Shown here piece after piece: positions 2,028 through 10,222 of a stretch of DNA of 29,114 nucleotides. The stretch lies in IMG/VR virus record IMGVR_UViG_3300044682_000088, positions 1 through 29,114 of that record; one strand, 5' to 3'. The position numbers and the translations under genes were made by a program. The stretch's first letter is position 1. Each line of letters begins with the position of its first letter. Origin of the DNA: a virus. The notes beneath the pieces are model-generated. The model did not search any database, was not told where the DNA came from, and was given only the letters and a program-made list of their open reading frames with translations.

Positions 2028-2667
2028 ACCGCCGGCTGGGTTCGACCGCACCATCGACCTCGATCTGCGGCGGTTAGTGGCGTTCTGGCCAGACGAGGGC
2101 CCGCTGGAGCTGCGTCGGGCGCTGACGGCGGAGGAACGGGTCGCCGCAGAGCGGAGGGCGGCCGAGCTCGCGGAGGCCTTGCGGCCGCACGGTGATGCCG
2201 ACCGGGCGCGGGTCGAATCCGCGTTGGCGGCGATGCTCGGCGGCTTCAGGTCGATGCGGCAGACCGGGGAGGACGCCGAGACGGTCGTTACCGTGCTGCG
2301 GGCCGTGTTGCGGGAGTTCCCGGCTTGGGCGGTCGAGCGGGCCTGCCTGCGCATCGCGCGCCGCGAGGCCGGGCTGGATGCGAGGTGGGCACCGAACGAC
2401 GCCCAAGTAGCGGAGATCTGCCGCGGGGTAGTCGCGGAGTACCGCGAGGCGCTGGAGAACGCCGAGGGCCTGCTCTTGGCCGTCGTTGCGAAAGGTTACC
2501 TCCCTCCCAAAGGGGGAGGTACCGAGGTCGCCAAGCCGCCGCCGTTGCACCGCGACACCGGCTATGCCGCCAGGGTCGCCGACGACCTCGCCCGCCGCAA
2601 GGCAGCGCGGGAGAACGAGCCGGCCGAAGCGGAGTCCGACGCCTATTACGGGGACGACGTTGGGTAA
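1942..2667 (+). CDS. Unrecognised phage protein in replication/modification operon
   Basis: 241 aa. The start is placed at the ATG at 1942 because a strong GGAGGAGG ribosome-binding site lies just upstream. The gene overlaps the end of the DUF1376 gene by 86 bases. The protein is Ala/Arg/Glu-rich and mostly helical, with no enzyme motif that I recognise. The middle (residues about 95-170) has regularly spaced hydrophobic residues suggesting a helical bundle (VTVLRAVLREFPAWAVERAC, then RWAPNDAQVAEICR). The last phrase resembles helicase-loader or DnaT-like segments, but that is weak. It ends inside the likely TTG start of the C5 methyltransferase. Confidence 0.6.
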   Translation: MKAIGQVATGIAVASRASRQGVPARRSAEPPAGFDRTIDLDLRRLVAFWPDEGPLELRRALTAEERVAAERRAAELAEALRPHGDADRARVESALAAMLGGFRSMRQTGEDAETVVTVLRAVLREFPAWAVERACLRIARREAGLDARWAPNDAQVAEICRGVVAEYREALENAEGLLLAVVAKGYLPPKGGGTEVAKPPPLHRDTGYAARVADDLARRKAARENEPAEAESDAYYGDDVG

Positions 2668-5212
2668 CGCCGCCGCCGAGGTGCTGGCCGCCTACTCCGG
2701 CTCGAACGCCGACCGGACGCGGGCGCTGTACGCCAAGCTGTCGGCCCTCGGGCCGGCCGGGGAGGTCGCCGTCAACTTGCTGAGGAGCTGCAAGACCTCG
2801 GAGAGGGCGAAGGTCTACCGCCGCCGATCGAGCCGCGGCGCCGCCTACGACACGAAGGGTTGGGCGATGGACAACCTCTGCAGGCTGCTCGGCGAGCACG
2901 CCGGCGCGCTCGGCGTCGGCTGGGGATGGGGGGAGGACGCCGAGACGCCGGGCTTCCCTTGGGTCTTATACGTCGAACTCTCCGACGGCGTCGGACAGGT
3001 CAGCTTCCACGCCGCGGCGCGCGGCGAGGGGCCTGCCTACGGCAAGCCTTGGGACGGTGCCAAGGGCGTCTCTGGGCAGAGGGCCTGCTCGTGGGCGGCT
3101 ACCTTGCTCGAACGTGCTGTCGGCCCTCCGCCGCCTGCCGCGGGGCCTCCCAAGATCAAGGCCGCCACGCTCTTCTCGGGGATCGGGGCTCCCGAGGTCG
3201 CTTGCCCGGACTGGGAGTGGCTTTGGCACGCCGAAGTCGAGAGCTTCCCCTGCGCCGTGATGAAGGCGCGCCATCCCGAATCCGTCAACCTTGGAGATGT
3301 CAATGCCGAAGACTTCGTCGAACGGGCAACGGCAACAGGAAAGCCCGACGTCATCGTATGGGGCTCGCCGTGCCAATCGTTCTCGGTAGCCGGGAAGAGG
3401 CTAGGTCTTGACGATCCGCGTGGAAACTTGACGCTGCTCGGGATCAAAAGGATCGGCGAACTCAAACCAAAATATAGCGTGTGGGAAAACGTACCTGGCG
3501 TCCTCAGTGACGAGGACGGCCTTACGATTCAAACCGTCGTAGAGTTGTTTACTCAAATAGGATATATTTGCGATATTGATATTTGGGACGCGCAATGGGG
3601 CGGCGTGCCCCAACGTCGCCGCAGGGTTTTCATCGTATGCGCGAGGTTAGACGATTTACTTCAGAAGAGGACGCCTACATCCGAGCGCATCGCGGCCGAT
3701 CTACTTGTACAAGCGTTGCTCGCCACTTGGGACGCAGCCTTGGAAGCATCGTCTCCAAGGAGATCACCCTCGGTATCAGAACCAAGAATAGGCGTATCCG
3801 AAAGTTCAGCAAACGCGAAGATGCGTTCCTTAGACGCTCTTTCGGGAGGATCAGCGGTCACGAGATTGCTCGCATTCTGGGCCGATTCTCAGATGGCAAG
3901 CGGCGTTGGCGACAAGAACATCGCGTCGTCGCAGAGGCAGTTTTGGGGAGACCTCTGGAGCAAGCTGAGAGGCCGCACCACGTCGACCTCGACGGAAGCA
4001 ACAACTCCGAACGAAATCTGTACGTTTGCCGAAATGAGTCTCATCATCGTTCGGTCCATAATCACCTCGCCAACCTCCTCGCTCAGCCAGCCTTGGTCCA
4101 GCGACTATTGGAGCTTGGCGTTCTTCGCTTTGACCATCATGAAGGAAATTATCGCCTATGCGGGATCGGCAAGTTGCGAACTCTTTAGCACTTCGGAATT
4201 GCGTTCTCGTTGGTGGGCTTGTCTCAACGACGCGAACTCCTGTTTCCTCGAGCTTGAGCGATATATTGGAAACTGGGCAACTTCCGAGCAAATACTTTCT
4301 CTCGCCGAAAGCTTGCGCTGGAATCCTGCGCCGGGCCGAGAAGCGGGGGAAGGAGTTGCCCCAACAATTAGCGCGCGCCCTACGGCTGGCGGCGGCCTCG
4401 GCACCGACTTCGATCTAGACGGCGGACTGATCCAGCAGGAAGCCTTCAACAACCAAGGCCACGGCTGGTGGGACAAAACCGACGCCGCACAGACGGTGCG
4501 GAAGGGCGACGATGGCGGGAGCGGCGGCGCGCGGGAGAGCACGCTGGTGGTCGCCCCTCCGCTCAACGCCGGGATGGGCCGCAGGCGCGGCAGCGGCGCG
4601 CATGGTGACCCGCTGGTCTCTGGTGCCGTTTCCGCGAAGTGGTCGAAGGGCACCGGCGGCCCGAGCGGGGACGAGTGCTACAACTTAGTCGCCTTCGACT
4701 ACAAGGCTGGCGGCGAAACCTCGTTCGCGGTCGGGCGCCAAGCCGGCGCGCTGCGCGGGGACGGTCACGGAGGCGGTCATGCCGCGATAGCCTTCCAGAC
4801 CCGCGTTGCCCGCAACGGTAGGGGCGGTGGTGAAGACGTCGTGCCGGCGCTCAACGGGGCGGACGCCGGGGCGACCTCCGACATGCGGCCGTGCGTCGCC
4901 GTGTTCAAGCCGTCGCATTTCACGAGGGACAAGGACGCCGGACCGTCCGACATCGTACCGCCGCTCACCGCCGACGCCGACAAGGGCGACCAAGACCCCG
5001 TACTGATGGATGGCGTCGCCGTGCGCAGGCTTACGCCGAGGGAGTGCGCAAGGCTTCAGGGCTTTCCAGACAATCATTTGGACATCACGTTCCGCGGAAA
5101 ACCCGCAGCTGATGGCCCAAAATATAAGGCGTTGGGGAATGCGATGTGCGTAAAAGAGGTCCGCTGGATCCTGCGGAGGATCGAGAAGTTCGAGCGCGAG
5201 GTGCGGAAGTGA
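2660..5212 (+). CDS. Phage C5-cytosine DNA methyltransferase with N-terminal extra domain and internal insert
   Basis: 850 aa from a TTG start that overlaps the previous stop by eight bases, with GGGG about six bases upstream. Residues 1-155 form an extra module (SERAKVYRRRSSRGAAYDTK, WAMDNLCRLLGEHAG, WVLYVELSDG, VSFHAAARGEGPAYG) of a kind seen alone or fused in phages. Then come the C5 motifs: I (KAATLFSGIGAPE), IV (VWGSPCQSFS, catalytic Cys238), VI (ENVPG), VIII (QRRRRVFIV). A roughly 210-residue insert follows (about 326-536), and it overlaps an HNH gene in another frame. The enzyme frame then resumes with a long Gly-rich target-recognition region, motif IX (RRLTPRECARLQGFPD) and motif X (KYKALGNAMC). 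It transfers methyl groups to cytosine C5, probably as phage self-protection. The insert is odd: it is open but low-complexity and lower in GC. Splicing at RNA or protein level cannot be excluded. Confidence 0.85.
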   Translation: MGNAAAEVLAAYSGSNADRTRALYAKLSALGPAGEVAVNLLRSCKTSERAKVYRRRSSRGAAYDTKGWAMDNLCRLLGEHAGALGVGWGWGEDAETPGFPWVLYVELSDGVGQVSFHAAARGEGPAYGKPWDGAKGVSGQRACSWAATLLERAVGPPPPAAGPPKIKAATLFSGIGAPEVACPDWEWLWHAEVESFPCAVMKARHPESVNLGDVNAEDFVERATATGKPDVIVWGSPCQSFSVAGKRLGLDDPRGNLTLLGIKRIGELKPKYSVWENVPGVLSDEDGLTIQTVVELFTQIGYICDIDIWDAQWGGVPQRRRRVFIVCARLDDLLQKRTPTSERIAADLLVQALLATWDAALEASSPRRSPSVSEPRIGVSESSANAKMRSLDALSGGSAVTRLLAFWADSQMASGVGDKNIASSQRQFWGDLWSKLRGRTTSTSTEATTPNEICTFAEMSLIIVRSIITSPTSSLSQPWSSDYWSLAFFALTIMKEIIAYAGSASCELFSTSELRSRWWACLNDANSCFLELERYIGNWATSEQILSLAESLRWNPAPGREAGEGVAPTISARPTAGGGLGTDFDLDGGLIQQEAFNNQGHGWWDKTDAAQTVRKGDDGGSGGARESTLVVAPPLNAGMGRRRGSGAHGDPLVSGAVSAKWSKGTGGPSGDECYNLVAFDYKAGGETSFAVGRQAGALRGDGHGGGHAAIAFQTRVARNGRGGGEDVVPALNGADAGATSDMRPCVAVFKPSHFTRDKDAGPSDIVPPLTADADKGDQDPVLMDGVAVRRLTPRECARLQGFPDNHLDITFRGKPAADGPKYKALGNAMCVKEVRWILRRIEKFEREVRK
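3637..4188 (+). CDS. HNH homing-type endonuclease nested inside the C5 methyltransferase
   Basis: 183 aa from ATG 3637, read one base ahead of the methyltransferase codons. The first half has two helix-turn-helix/SANT-like segments (FTSEEDAYIRAH with ARHLGRS; FSKREDAFLRR with EIARILGR). The second half is a clear HNH nuclease: EHRVVAEAVLGRPL, then HHVDLDGSNNSERNLYVC with the paired His and Asn, and a final HHRSVHNHLANLL. These are the landmarks of phage HNH homing enzymes. Protein-like sequence is in this frame, while the overlapping host frame reads as shifted residues (Thr/Ser-rich at the HNH core). Base composition is visibly less GC-rich than the flanks. Its ATG sits at the point where methyltransferase similarity breaks after motif VIII. 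Confidence 0.8.
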   Translation: MREVRRFTSEEDAYIRAHRGRSTCTSVARHLGRSLGSIVSKEITLGIRTKNRRIRKFSKREDAFLRRSFGRISGHEIARILGRFSDGKRRWRQEHRVVAEAVLGRPLEQAERPHHVDLDGSNNSERNLYVCRNESHHRSVHNHLANLLAQPALVQRLLELGVLRFDHHEGNYRLCGIGKLRTL

Positions 5213-5800
5213 TCAAGATCATCGTAGGAGACTGCCGCGCCGTGATGCGCTCGCTGCCAGAGGAATCCGTGCAGGCCTGCATTACGTCGCCCCCCTATTA
5301 CGGCTTGCGTGAATACGGAATCGAGCCATCGCTGTGGGACGGCGACTTGGTCGACTGCGACCACGAGTGGGGTCAACCCCACCGGACAGCTTGGGCGAAC
5401 AGCGTGCAGGGCGAGAAGGGCGGCCGCGGCGGCAAGAACATCAATTATCGCACCACCGCGAAGGAGACTGGCCCGTTCTGCGTCAAATGCGGGTGCTGGC
5501 GCGGCGTCCTCGGTATGGAGCCCGACTTCCGCGAGTTCATCGCGCACGTCGTTGATGTTTTCCGCGAGGTCCGCCGCGTATTGCGGCCCGACGGGGTCGT
5601 CTTCCTGAACTTGGGCGACTCGTACGCGACGGGCGCCGGGGCAGTCGGCGATCATCCCGGCGGCGGCGAGCAGGGAGCCAGGTGGGTCGGCCGGCCAGCG
5701 CTTGGCAAGACAGCTTGGGCCGGCCGCAACGTACCGGGCAATCATCGCGGGCAGGAAGGCAGGTGGCGCGGCGAGGGCTCGAAGCATGACTACGGCATAG
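5209..5800 (+). pseudogene. N4/N6 DNA methyltransferase, N-terminal half only
   Basis: The start is a GTG overlapping the C5 gene stop (GTGA). The protein begins VIKIIVGDCRAVMRSLPEES, then QACITSPPYYGLREYG, where SPPY is the catalytic motif IV of amino-methyltransferases. A CxxC pair (CVKCGC) and a FREVRRVLRPDG/FLNLGDSY segment follow, all typical of phage-borne enzymes of this class. Similarity stops near 5790. The frame then runs on to 6354 through sequence that is the antisense of a minus-strand gene. The expected SAM-binding FxGxG motif and C-terminus are missing. The likely cause is insertion, with loss of the 3' half. The C-terminal fragment at the window start looks like a different subfamily, so it is not simply the missing half. 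Confidence 0.7.
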
Positions 5801-5806
5801 GGCGGC

Positions 5807-5850
5807 TTTGCCTAATAATCCTCGTTTGCCTAATAACTCTCGCATTTGCC
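5807..5850. repeat. Short tandem repeat at the insertion junction
   Basis: Two 18-base units (TTTGCCTAATAATCCTCG and TTTGCCTAATAACTCTCG) differ at two bases and are followed by a third partial TTTGCC at 5845..5850. They sit exactly between the truncated methyltransferase and the stop of the minus-strand gene, marking the join between phage-like GC-rich sequence and AT-richer cargo. Confidence 0.6.
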
Positions 5851-5865
5851 CAAAAAGCCTATGCC

Positions 5866-6734
5866 TCAAGTAGGATCGCCAGCGCTCATCAATTCAACCA
5901 AGATCATATTGCCGGCGTCAACGTTGCGCCCGTCGAGGTTGAACGTCAGCCGAGCGCGGACGTCGCCATTGGTGCGCCAGAGGTGATAGACGAATGGAGT
6001 GTAATGAGGCTCCCGCTCGCCGAACGAAAAATAATATTCAATCGATCCCAAAATAACCGGCACCATTTCTACCGCCGGGTCTCCCCTAAAATCTTTCAGA
6101 CTGGCGATTTTAGTTTCTGGAATAATCAGCGTGCGGGGAATAATCAAATCGTCCTGAGCACCGGGAAACAATGGGCGTTCGATTATCGGGCGTCGAGTAG
6201 ATGTGCGGTGGCTTTCTTGCAGCTTAGCCATCTCACCGGGAATATCGTCGTTCAAGAGGAATGGGAAAATCGCTGCGGCCAAAGAGACGCGCTGCGCGGG
6301 CGAAGTTCCCTGTTTTTACAAAAAACATTGATTCTGAAGATTGCATTCCGTTGAGCCCATGCGAGGCCAACGGTAATTGCTACGCATGTGACCGAAACCC
6401 ACGGCCTATGCGTCGCATTGAAATCGTCGCGAGCAATGGCAATGGACTCTCTAGTGATGCTCCACATTTTCTCGTTGGATTTCCAGAGCGTATAGGTGAA
6501 AGCGGCAATAGCTACGGTCGCGAGAGCGGTAAAAGCAGCGGCGCTGCTATCCAAGAACCTTCCAATTTCGAGGAGAAAGAACGCCGCGAGATTGTGAACG
6601 GTGCAGTATTCTTGGCCGGATTGGGCGCGCTCGCATATCTGGCTTTGAAAGCCGGATAGCCATGCGGCGAGTAATAGAAGACACGATCCGCCAACGAGAC
6701 CAGAAGCGACGCGCTTTAGCATTGGCGTTACCAT
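5866..6734 (-). pseudogene. Two-TM membrane protein gene with an apparent frameshift
   Basis: Two minus-strand frames join into one protein. The upstream part (6252..6734, ATG at 6734, GGAG upstream) has a hydrophobic N-terminal segment, a second segment (SSAAAFTALATVAIAAFTYTLW), then a helical stretch ending THRPWVSVTCVAI. The downstream part (5866..6282) continues as the soluble beta-rich domain of the same family (PVILGSIEYYF, FVYHLWRTNGD). This two-TM plus HRPW layout is common in uncharacterised proteobacterial inner-membrane proteins. The frame changes between about 6282 and 6330, near runs of T and A, so the gene is either decayed or carries a sequencing error. Its orientation and lower GC oppose those of its neighbours. 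It looks like cargo inserted into the methyltransferase operon. Confidence 0.6.
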
Positions 6735-6787
6735 CAACGGCTCCGCCTCAAATATCTTCTAGCCTGATAACATCCGACTTGATCGCG

Positions 6788-7560: not shown

Positions 7561-8148
7561 ATGCCGAAAAAGCCCAAGCCTGACGATTGGTCAACGCCGA
7601 AGAGTTGGCCAGCATCGAAGGTAGAGATGCGCCCACTCTCATGGATCAAGCAATACGAAGGCAATCCGCGGACGCACCCGCCAGCGCAAATCGACCTTTT
7701 AGCGCGGTCAATGCGCGACGACGGCGTGACGATGCCAATCTTGGTGGACGAGGGCGGGATTATCATCGCGGGGCACGGGCGCCGCCTTGCCGCGCTACAA
7801 AACAGCTACGATGAGTTTCCGGTCGTAATCGCATACGGTTGGTCCGACGAGAAGAAGCGCGCCGCAAGGATCAAGGATAATTCATACGGGCTAATGAGCG
7901 GATGGGACAAGGAGCTGCTTCGCGCTGAAATCATCCACCTCCAAGCACTCGACGGCGACCTGCAACTCCTCGGCTTCGGCGACGCCGAGCTGGTACAGTT
8001 CACCACGCTGCCTGGACCGCCAGATCAGTTCCCTGCGGTCGGGGACGTCAATACGAGTTACTGCTGCCCGCGCTGCGGCCACTCTTGGTCTGGCGACCCA
8101 ATGGCCGGCGAGCGGAAGGCCAAGAACAAAAATGCCAAGAAGCGGTGA
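7561..8148 (+). CDS. ParB N-terminal domain protein with C-terminal zinc ribbon
   Basis: 195 aa from ATG 7561, with AAGGA eight bases upstream. Residues 25-110 form a ParB/Srx-type nucleotide-binding domain: PLSWIKQYEGNPRTHP, then DGVTMPILVDEGG and IIAGHGRRLAA, the GHGRR box that contacts nucleotide in ParB relatives. A helical region and YCCPRCGHSW (a CxxC half zinc ribbon) follow, then a basic tail. Phage proteins of this type are commonly found beside DNA methyltransferases. Some are nucleases, while others probably have a DNA-modification role. There is no clear helix-turn-helix like that of plasmid or chromosome ParB. The next gene starts inside its last 17 bases. Confidence 0.75.
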   Translation: MPKKPKPDDWSTPKSWPASKVEMRPLSWIKQYEGNPRTHPPAQIDLLARSMRDDGVTMPILVDEGGIIIAGHGRRLAALQNSYDEFPVVIAYGWSDEKKRAARIKDNSYGLMSGWDKELLRAEIIHLQALDGDLQLLGFGDAELVQFTTLPGPPDQFPAVGDVNTSYCCPRCGHSWSGDPMAGERKAKNKNAKKR

Positions 8149-10222
8149 CCTCGTCGCGGCGTCGCTTTTTGCGGGGGTCGGCGGCAGCAGCTTGGGGTAC
8201 CGCTCGGTCGGCTTCCGCGTCGTCTACGCCAACGAGTTCTCGCCCCACGCCTCGGGCTGCTACGCGCTGAACATGGACCGGGCGACGAAACTCGACGCCA
8301 GCGACGTCCGCGAGGTCAAGGCGGCCGCCTTCGGTGTTGCCAAGGGTGAGTTAGACCTTCTCGACGGCAGCCCGCCGTGCTTTACGGCTGAGGCGCTGAT
8401 CATGACTAAGGCTGGCCTACGGCCGATTACGGACGTTAAGATAGGCGATCTGGTACTTACGCATCGGCTGCGGTGGCGCCGCGTTACCAATACTTCCCAG
8501 CGGCGCGCAGAAACGATCAAGCTCAAGGGCCAAGGTCATCCAGGGCTCGCGACGACGAATGAGCATCCGTTCTGGGTGCGCCAACTCGGTCGAAAGTTTA
8601 ACCGAGCGAAGCGCAGATATGATCGCGCTTTCGGCAACCCAGAATGGATAGGGGCTGGCAAGTTGCGGCCAGACGCGAAGGGTCACCACCAAGGTGGCCG
8701 CGCTTGGTTCTGGTCGGCGCCGTCTGCTTTTCCGAAAGCGCGGGTTCCTTTGATACCGACGCTAAACAAGCGAAGCCATATCTTCAATACGAGTTCGGCG
8801 GCGCTCATGTGGGTTGTCGGCGCGTGGCTTGGGGATGGCTGGCTTCGAACCGGCCCGACATCGGATCATAAGGGGACACGCGGGGAAGTGCTCATTTGCA
8901 GTAGCAAAGCTGAAGCGCCGTGGCTCGAAGCTTCTCTACGCCGTGCCGGTTTGCGGTTTTCATCCAGGGACGAGCGAACTACGCGCCGCTTCGCGATCAT
9001 GAGCAAGCCGTTCGCTATATGGCTTGAGAAGCATTTCGGGAGATACAGCGGCGGTAAGCGTCTTCCAGCATGGGCTTACGGCATGCACCGCGATCTGCGC
9101 GAGGCGCTGCTTTCGGGGTACCGCTTCGCAGACGGGACCGAGGCCGTACAAGTCAGAGGTGGGTGTCCCATTCAGCGGTTCTCAACCGTAAACAAAGGGC
9201 TCGCTATTGGCTTTCGCCTGCTGGCCGGTACGCTCGGTAAATCGGCTACGATTATGTGGAGCGACATGCCGACCAAGAAGAAAATTGAAGGGCGCATCGT
9301 CAACCAGCGCGGCTTTTATCAACTCACGATCTATGATCGCGCTCGAAGTGCTTTCGCTGAAGGCGGCATGTTCTGGGGCAAGATCCGAAGTATCGCCGAA
9401 ACCGGCATCGTTGCGGATGTTTTCAATATCGAGGTCGAGGAAGACAATAGCTACGTCGCTGATGGCATCGTAGTTCATAACTGCCAAGCATTCTCGATGT
9501 CAGGCAAGCGCGCCGAGAACTGGGGCAAGGAGAGGCGCTACGCCCACGGCGCCACGCAACGCAACGAGGACTTGTTCTTCGAGTTCGTCAGGTTGCGCGA
9601 CGAGGCCATGCCGCGCGCGTTCGTGGCGGAGAACGTACCTGGCTTGGTCAAGGGGGTAGCGAAGGGGTACTTCCTCGACATCATGCGGGAGTTGCGGCGC
9701 GGCTACCGCGTCGAGGCCCGCCTCCTCGACGCGCAGTGGCTGGGCGTCCCGCAGGCCAGGCAGCGCTTGGTCTTCGTCGGCATCCGCGACGACCTCGGCA
9801 TGGACCCAGTATTTCCGGAGCCACAGCGGCACCGGATCTCGGTGAAGGAGGCCCTGCCAGGGATAGCGGTCGCTTGGCGCGACCGGCGCGGCGCCTTCGG
9901 CAACAGCGGCGACATGACCAACAAGCCGGCTCCGACCGTCCTCGCGGACAGCGTCGGGACCCATTGGGTCGTCGACGTCGGGTCGACTGAGCGTCGGAAG
10001 ATGACGATCGACGAGCTCAAGGTCGTCTGCGGTTTCCCCCGGGACTACAAGATGGACGGCAGCTACGCCGAGCAATGGAAGGGGCTCGGCAATTGCGTGC
10101 CGCCGCCGATGACGGCCGCCATCGGCGCCGCGCTCAGGGACCGCGTGCTGCTTCCCGCGCGAGCCGCCGCCAGAATCGCCGCGCGCGGGCGACGTTCGAC
10201 GGCGAGTTCCAAAAGTGGCTGA
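8132..10222 (+). CDS. C5-cytosine DNA methyltransferase precursor split by an intein
   Basis: 696 aa precursor; removing the 368-residue intein leaves 328 aa, a normal size for a C5 methyltransferase. Motif I is SLFAGVGGSSLGYRSVG near residue 10. Motif IV is interrupted: the extein reads GSPP, then the intein begins with Cys83, and after the intein the extein resumes CQAFSMSGKR with Cys451. Splicing therefore restores the catalytic PPCQ. Later motifs are AENVPGL (VI), QARQRLVFVG (VIII), LKVVCGFPRDY (IX) and WKGLGNCVPPPM (X). The enzyme methylates cytosine at C5, probably to protect phage DNA. Activity should depend on splicing because both copies of the Cys are splice-junction residues. The 3' end overlaps an antisense uracil-DNA glycosylase-like gene. 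Confidence 0.9.
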   Translation: MPRSGDLVAASLFAGVGGSSLGYRSVGFRVVYANEFSPHASGCYALNMDRATKLDASDVREVKAAAFGVAKGELDLLDGSPPCFTAEALIMTKAGLRPITDVKIGDLVLTHRLRWRRVTNTSQRRAETIKLKGQGHPGLATTNEHPFWVRQLGRKFNRAKRRYDRAFGNPEWIGAGKLRPDAKGHHQGGRAWFWSAPSAFPKARVPLIPTLNKRSHIFNTSSAALMWVVGAWLGDGWLRTGPTSDHKGTRGEVLICSSKAEAPWLEASLRRAGLRFSSRDERTTRRFAIMSKPFAIWLEKHFGRYSGGKRLPAWAYGMHRDLREALLSGYRFADGTEAVQVRGGCPIQRFSTVNKGLAIGFRLLAGTLGKSATIMWSDMPTKKKIEGRIVNQRGFYQLTIYDRARSAFAEGGMFWGKIRSIAETGIVADVFNIEVEEDNSYVADGIVVHNCQAFSMSGKRAENWGKERRYAHGATQRNEDLFFEFVRLRDEAMPRAFVAENVPGLVKGVAKGYFLDIMRELRRGYRVEARLLDAQWLGVPQARQRLVFVGIRDDLGMDPVFPEPQRHRISVKEALPGIAVAWRDRRGAFGNSGDMTNKPAPTVLADSVGTHWVVDVGSTERRKMTIDELKVVCGFPRDYKMDGSYAEQWKGLGNCVPPPMTAAIGAALRDRVLLPARAAARIAARGRRSTASSKSG
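8378..9481 (+). mobile_element. LAGLIDADG intein at the methyltransferase catalytic Cys
   Basis: 368 codons. Block A starts CFTAEALIMTKAGLRPITDV. Block B has GLATTNEHPFWV (the TxxH site). The central endonuclease shows two LAGLIDADG-like motifs, VVGAWLGDGWLR and LLSGYRFADGTEAV. Block F/G is DVFNIEVEEDNSYVADGIVV followed by the terminal His-Asn, with Cys as the +1 residue. All residues needed for class 1 splicing (Cys1, the TxxH His, penultimate His, Asn, +1 Cys) are present. Base composition is less GC-rich than the exteins, consistent with separate origin. The endonuclease probably recognises the empty methyltransferase motif IV site. Confidence 0.9.

Follow-up and report, generated by a model that had tools for sequence, protein, structure and literature searches.

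Homing elements that lie within genes are thought to require splicing in order to be tolerated. The described system closest to the locus reported here is the ShiLan domain, an HNH endonuclease gene read out of frame within a phage methylase gene, where the host frame is stop-free and splicing signals are lacking (Arsenault, Gosselin and Gogarten 2025, PMC11855218; earlier PMC9957025). No ribosome site was found for the ShiLan element, and how its hidden HNH gene is translated was left open (PMC11855218). The same work describes the Pacc40 gp60 insertion, in which a helicase-methylase gene contains an HNH-like ORF out of frame; its HNH assignment is weaker according to the authors (PMC11855218).

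The DNA analysed here (the window) is a whole IMG/VR virus record of 29,114 bases with a G+C content of 64%. In it an HNH gene is read inside the gene of a C5-cytosine DNA methyltransferase (MTase). An earlier note on this DNA had suggested an intein-like strategy without splicing blocks; an arrangement of this kind has a precedent in the ShiLan domain (PMC11855218). The window element resembles ShiLan in having a shifted-frame HNH gene in a phage methylase, an open host frame, no intron or intein signal and a patchy distribution; even the relative frame is identical (HNH in the host +2 frame). The two differ in that: (i) ShiLan gp65 is, from its sequence, an amino-MTase (TDPPY) that lacks the C5 motifs and is interrupted at a different site, whereas the family described here sits at motif VIII of C5 MTases; (ii) the ShiLan HNH protein is of the zinc-finger type, with flanking zinc fingers and a GTG start, whereas the HNH proteins of our family have an HTH-like N-terminal half; (iii) several of our loci have a Shine-Dalgarno-like sequence in the motif VIII codons; (iv) our family reaches beyond actinophages, as far as metagenome phages show; and (v) selection on both frames has been measured in it. 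The Pacc40 insertion differs in both host protein and position. The window element is thus a different family of the ShiLan kind and not the ShiLan domain itself. We consider it highly probable that this is a family of splice-free homing elements in phage C5-MTase genes in which both frames code.

Anatomy of the window locus

The host frame is free of stops over 2432..5212 and matches C5-MTase profiles with high significance (PF00145, E 3e-45; TIGR00675, E 4e-44). Motifs I, IV, VI, VIII, IX and X all lie in this one frame. MTase homology starts near 3155, and the gene start given below is provisional. The features of the locus are as follows.

2486..5212, plus strand: C5-cytosine DNA methyltransferase host gene (PF00145, TIGR00675 and phrog_116 matches; open frame 2432..5212)
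3611..3637, plus strand: MTase motif VIII, QRRRRVFIV, directly 5' of the insert (translation and alignment; Q codon at 3611)
3622..3626, plus strand: weak Shine-Dalgarno-like CAGGG in the motif VIII Arg codons, 5' of the HNH start (sequence)
3637..4188, plus strand: nested HNH endonuclease gene, one base ahead of the MTase codons (profile matches, HNH residues)
3637..3945, plus strand: two HTH-like DNA-binding segments, residues about 5-45 and 55-103 (alignment repeat, model helices)
3638..4263, plus strand: in-frame insert of about 209 residues, stop-free in the MTase frame (same DNA as the HNH gene)
3919..4059, plus strand: HNH nuclease core, residues 95-141 (PF13392 match over residues 95-138; invariant H/N residues)
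4158..4418, plus strand: ORF B, 86 aa, a third overlapping frame running from within the HNH 3' end into the resumed MTase
4264..4400, plus strand: resumed MTase, IGNWATSEQIL..REAGEG (counterpart of GYLGDW...REAG in empty-site MTases)
5006..5212, plus strand: MTase motifs IX-X region, RRLTPRECARLQGFPD...KALGNAMCV, in the same frame as the N-terminal half (translation, alignments)

The HNH ORF starts with the ATG at 3637, ends with the stop at 4186-4188 and encodes 183 aa. This ATG spans two host codons: its A completes the Val codon at the end of QRRRRVFIV, and its TG opens the Cys codon behind it; host-frame homology resumes at about 4264, 75 bases past the HNH stop. These coordinates bear out what the earlier note had read from the letters, namely that the reading frame of the HNH gene precedes that of the MTase by one base, that motif VIII ends at the HNH ATG and that the host frame stays open for about 210 codons before resuming at IGNW.

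The HNH protein matches PF13392 (HNH_3) with an E value of 1e-4 and 22.1 bits, slightly below the cut-off of 24.8; several HNH PHROGs match it as well and every invariant HNH residue of the family is present. When the model of the HNH protein was submitted to Foldseek, only weak HTH matches were returned and no HNH structure was matched, so that the HNH assignment rests on profiles. Ahead of the nuclease core the model predicts two three-helix groups (residues 9-44 and 59-103), in line with the two HTH segments proposed previously; Pfam HTH or Myb domains were detected solely in relatives.

Relatives and empty sites

Starting from the HNH protein, a search turned up nine records of Omegavirus mycobacteriophages that have the same HNH type (34% identity) within a DNA methylase gene, and the open host frame of these phages resembles that of the window (BLASTP 5e-10). 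Their annotations vary, giving methylase only, both genes, or the remark 'unable to determine intron boundaries'. Two further loci (L008 and L010) were found by a DNA pattern of motif VIII plus the next codons and six more (L015, L016, L029, L030, L047 and L200) by profile scans, which with the window and the Omegaviruses makes ten independent loci, in at least ten phage lineages. When the phage collection was searched with the window host-frame insert alone there was no match, and single-protein scans of viral contigs did not reach the family; it was therefore reached by way of the Omegavirus HNH match and DNA patterns. A scan of genome contigs yielded no relative, an alignment of six HNH sequences was too diverse for scanning, and the sole match to a DNA pattern of the HNH/B junction (L011) was set aside as a chance match.

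All ten loci share the insertion site after motif VIII, the frame offset and the stop-free host frame, at G+C contents from about 50% (L008, L010) to 68%, and motifs IX-X are retained in frame downstream of the insert in nine of the ten. The search that the earlier note had suggested, for other MTases with an HNH gene in the shifted frame, was thus positive in nine further loci, and host-frame stops across the insert, which by its account would have spoken against the idea, were found in none of them.

The Omegavirus MTase is split after the insert, in HNH-free Omegaviruses as well. A poly-G tract past the insert site differs in length among these phages (L002, L003, L005, L020, L021, L027); the length change shifts the MTase frame and places the C-terminal motifs in a separate ORF, which is possibly phase-variable. 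Separately, in L003 and L009 (Thibault) the MTase frame is shifted upstream of the insert by a single-base difference near its 5' side, in the 5' part of the gene, and the HNH and B frames are intact.

Invaded and empty alleles occur at the same conserved site. The distance from QRRRR to REA is 35-36 residues in empty-site MTases versus 242-325 in those that bear the element. Among Omegaviruses, Constella carries the HNH gene and Dove lacks it. Identity between the two is 93% as far as MTase nt 109 and 97% from the insert end onward, and between these break points the whole 5' MTase part and the insert are replaced; KashFlow and Lucky2013 have identical break points. Such a replaced tract is as expected after homing with co-conversion, although ordinary recombination could also leave it.

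The open host frame and competing explanations

For the window alone, the openness of the host frame is not significant (P(open) is 0.077 after synonymous shuffling of the HNH codons and 0.097 when the codon usage of the genome is applied). It is significant across the family: in nine loci we observed 0 host-frame stops versus 34 expected from own-codon shuffles and about 58 expected from local codon usage, whereas the third frame, taken as a control, held 142 stops versus 145 expected. Moreover, all of 37 related HNH ORFs without a C5-MTase context, a set that includes several near-duplicates, carry 1-32 stops in the same relative frame. Free-standing HNH homing endonucleases share the HNH_3-type nuclease family with our element and differ from it in being located between genes and in having stops in their shifted frames.

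To look for selection on the host-frame reading we made use of the fact that the third bases of fourfold-degenerate HNH codons are position 2 of host codons, and compared the agreement at these sites between divergent lineages with a codon-usage expectation. Fourfold HNH sites of the nested genes agree in 45.3% of cases versus 30.8% expected. The same test on single-coded MTase gave 28.7 versus 26.7 for the N-terminal part and 26.4 versus 26.1 for the C-terminal part, and free-standing HNH genes at like divergence gave 28.2 versus 27.0; as these free-standing genes show little excess at the same divergence, the nested excess does not come from recent divergence. Lineage pairs share branches and are not independent, so the z of 11 is inflated and we attach no formal probability to it. 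Between the closely related L008 and L010, 10 changes alter both proteins at once, versus 28.8 expected. Host-frame replacements in this pair are commoner in the insert than in single-coded MTase (Fisher 0.001), and the insert is therefore less constrained than the MTase core. A test in this pair for constraint from the host frame on HNH position-1 changes was no more than suggestive (P 0.08), and the many-lineage fourfold-site test was used instead. Since sites that are synonymous for HNH are conserved where a change would alter the host residue, the host-frame insert is judged to be under selection, a selected stretch of protein and not a chance opening. The earlier note had pictured a homing gene that doubles as a tolerated in-frame insertion without splicing blocks; the dual coding holds up, 'tolerated' is too weak a word for residues that are selected, and the homing is presumed.

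The L010 MTase was modelled with AlphaFold from 21 sequences. The mean pLDDT was 58, with confident core blocks of 80-96, and the modelled core matches M.HhaI (Foldseek E 7e-13). The insert is predicted as helices, with moderate confidence at the start, low confidence in the middle and values up to 85 at the end (residues 379-407), a pattern that would suit a stalk of helices loosened in its central part.

Could the HNH ORF instead be carried by a group I, group II or unknown intron that is spliced from the mRNA? HNH genes are frequent in phage introns, and it is the Schatzie record that carries the remark on intron boundaries. However, an Rfam search of the window and seven element loci by covariance models gave no match to any family, ribozyme cores included, so that the intron boundaries named by the earlier note as a refuting outcome did not appear there; the insert outside the HNH ORF amounts to only about 75 nt, insufficient for a group I core; and an intron would leave a stop-free, selected host frame without reason. 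Group I introns with HNH ORFs are similar to our element in placing the ORF within a host gene, and differ from it in that it has no detected ribozyme core and an open, selected host frame. We rejected an intron on the lack of an Rfam match together with the selected open frame, and regard it as very unlikely, if slightly better placed than the readings that follow.

A shade less credible is programmed frameshifting that fuses HNH to the N-terminal half of the MTase, with the host frame as a by-product. The HNH frame is indeed -1 immediately past motif VIII, but the HNH gene has a start codon of its own in all loci, preceded in several by a Shine-Dalgarno-like AGGAGG, and the host frame is under selection.

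The insert could also be a protein-splicing element of unknown chemistry that starts with Cys and excises itself. A Cys directly follows motif VIII in seven of the ten loci, but it mostly follows from the overlap, in which a C comes after the ATG, and is absent in L015, L029 and L200; a C-terminal Asn-Cys/Ser/Thr end is not conserved. Hint/intein profiles gave no match to the host frame, although the same searches detected, as a positive control, the intein that the window's second C5 MTase carries (8132..10222). An intein was rejected on these grounds, and we give self-excision of any kind hardly any credence. Inteins with homing endonucleases and our element are alike in being inserted in frame where the gene of an enzyme is conserved, and both presumably spread by homing; in our element splicing domains are lacking, the endonuclease is in the other frame and the insert is apparently retained. 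The control intein is a canonical one (Hint_2, TIGR01443) and interrupts motif IV at PP/CQ.

Equally improbable, and rejected on the comparative data, is that a free-standing HNH gene inserted into and killed the MTase and that the open frame is an accident of G+C-rich DNA, which the window alone would allow (P(open) 0.08-0.10) but which is contradicted by the lack of any stop in all ten loci, among them L008 and L010 with a G+C content of about 50%, by the stops in related HNH genes located elsewhere and by in-frame motifs IX-X in nine of ten loci.

Translation, ORF B and presumed spread

In L005, L008, L029 and L030 the Arg codons of motif VIII form AGGAGG or AGGAG before the HNH start (a strong AGGAGG in L005, L029 and L030); the remaining loci, the window included, have weaker purine-rich matches there. 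This Shine-Dalgarno-like sequence probably serves in HNH translation and would suggest an answer, in several lineages, to the question of how a hidden HNH gene is translated.

The third frame, ORF B (...LSDILET..PQRYFLSPKACAGILRRAEKRGKKLP...), is in the MTase +1 frame and shares its DNA with the motif VIII region and with what comes next in the gene. It was found in 78 of 79 phage C5 MTases chosen without regard to B; the empty-site MTases in this comparison were L117-L195. Its positional entropies are 0.65, 0.65 and 1.29, with codon positions 1 and 2 conserved and position 3 variable, and it therefore looks like a real gene under selection. Searches with ORF B gave no match in Pfam or NCBIfam and no clear one in PHROG. 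The element breaks the upstream frame of B, and a new B start (M[RP]D.QV; MDRQ in L047) lies in or near the HNH 3' end, preceded in most loci by a Shine-Dalgarno-like sequence.

In the splice-free, dual-coding model that we favor, an HNH homing gene would enter C5-MTase genes exactly behind the motif VIII codons, where the variable target-recognition region begins; motif VIII is conserved and would make a suitable target. The HNH protein would be started from its own codon, with the Shine-Dalgarno-like sequence provided within the Arg codons of motif VIII, and the same DNA would be read as an in-frame MTase insert of roughly 200-290 residues, after which motifs IX-X would follow in the same polypeptide. 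MTase alleles that lack the element would be cut by the HNH enzyme and would then acquire it through repair. The model builds on what the sequences show: the anatomy and its conservation in ten loci, a host frame free of stops, selection acting on both frames, no match to a known splicing element, and the replacement of alleles within a single phage genus. To these it adds cleavage, homing, activity of the long MTase and use of the Shine-Dalgarno-like sequence, which we infer.

On balance we favor the view that, next to self-splicing introns and inteins, dual coding gives homing genes a third and widespread means of living within coding sequences. The DNA of the element would be selected for the endonuclease and also for a folded domain that it adds in frame to the host enzyme, and in the present family it would supply the start of a third ORF as well; two HNH types would have taken to dual coding in one MTase gene (L030). 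Ten independent loci that lack a splicing signal and have both frames under selection make splice-free dual coding testable as a general solution. There is also a warning here for annotation, as records so far give methylase, or HNH, or a suspected intron.

Two minor observations concern other insertions. In L030 (3794..4402; the same element is in L198) a second in-frame insert lies between motifs IX and X of the same MTase. Read in the host +2 frame it codes for an HNH protein of the zinc-finger type (PF01844), and the host frame is open here too, so that two different out-of-frame HNH elements occupy one C5 MTase gene. In the window, an amino-MTase-like ORF at 5146..6354 loses its MTase similarity after about 5815, and minus-strand ORFs at 5866..6282 and 6252..6737 lie where the similarity is lost, perhaps marking another insertion.
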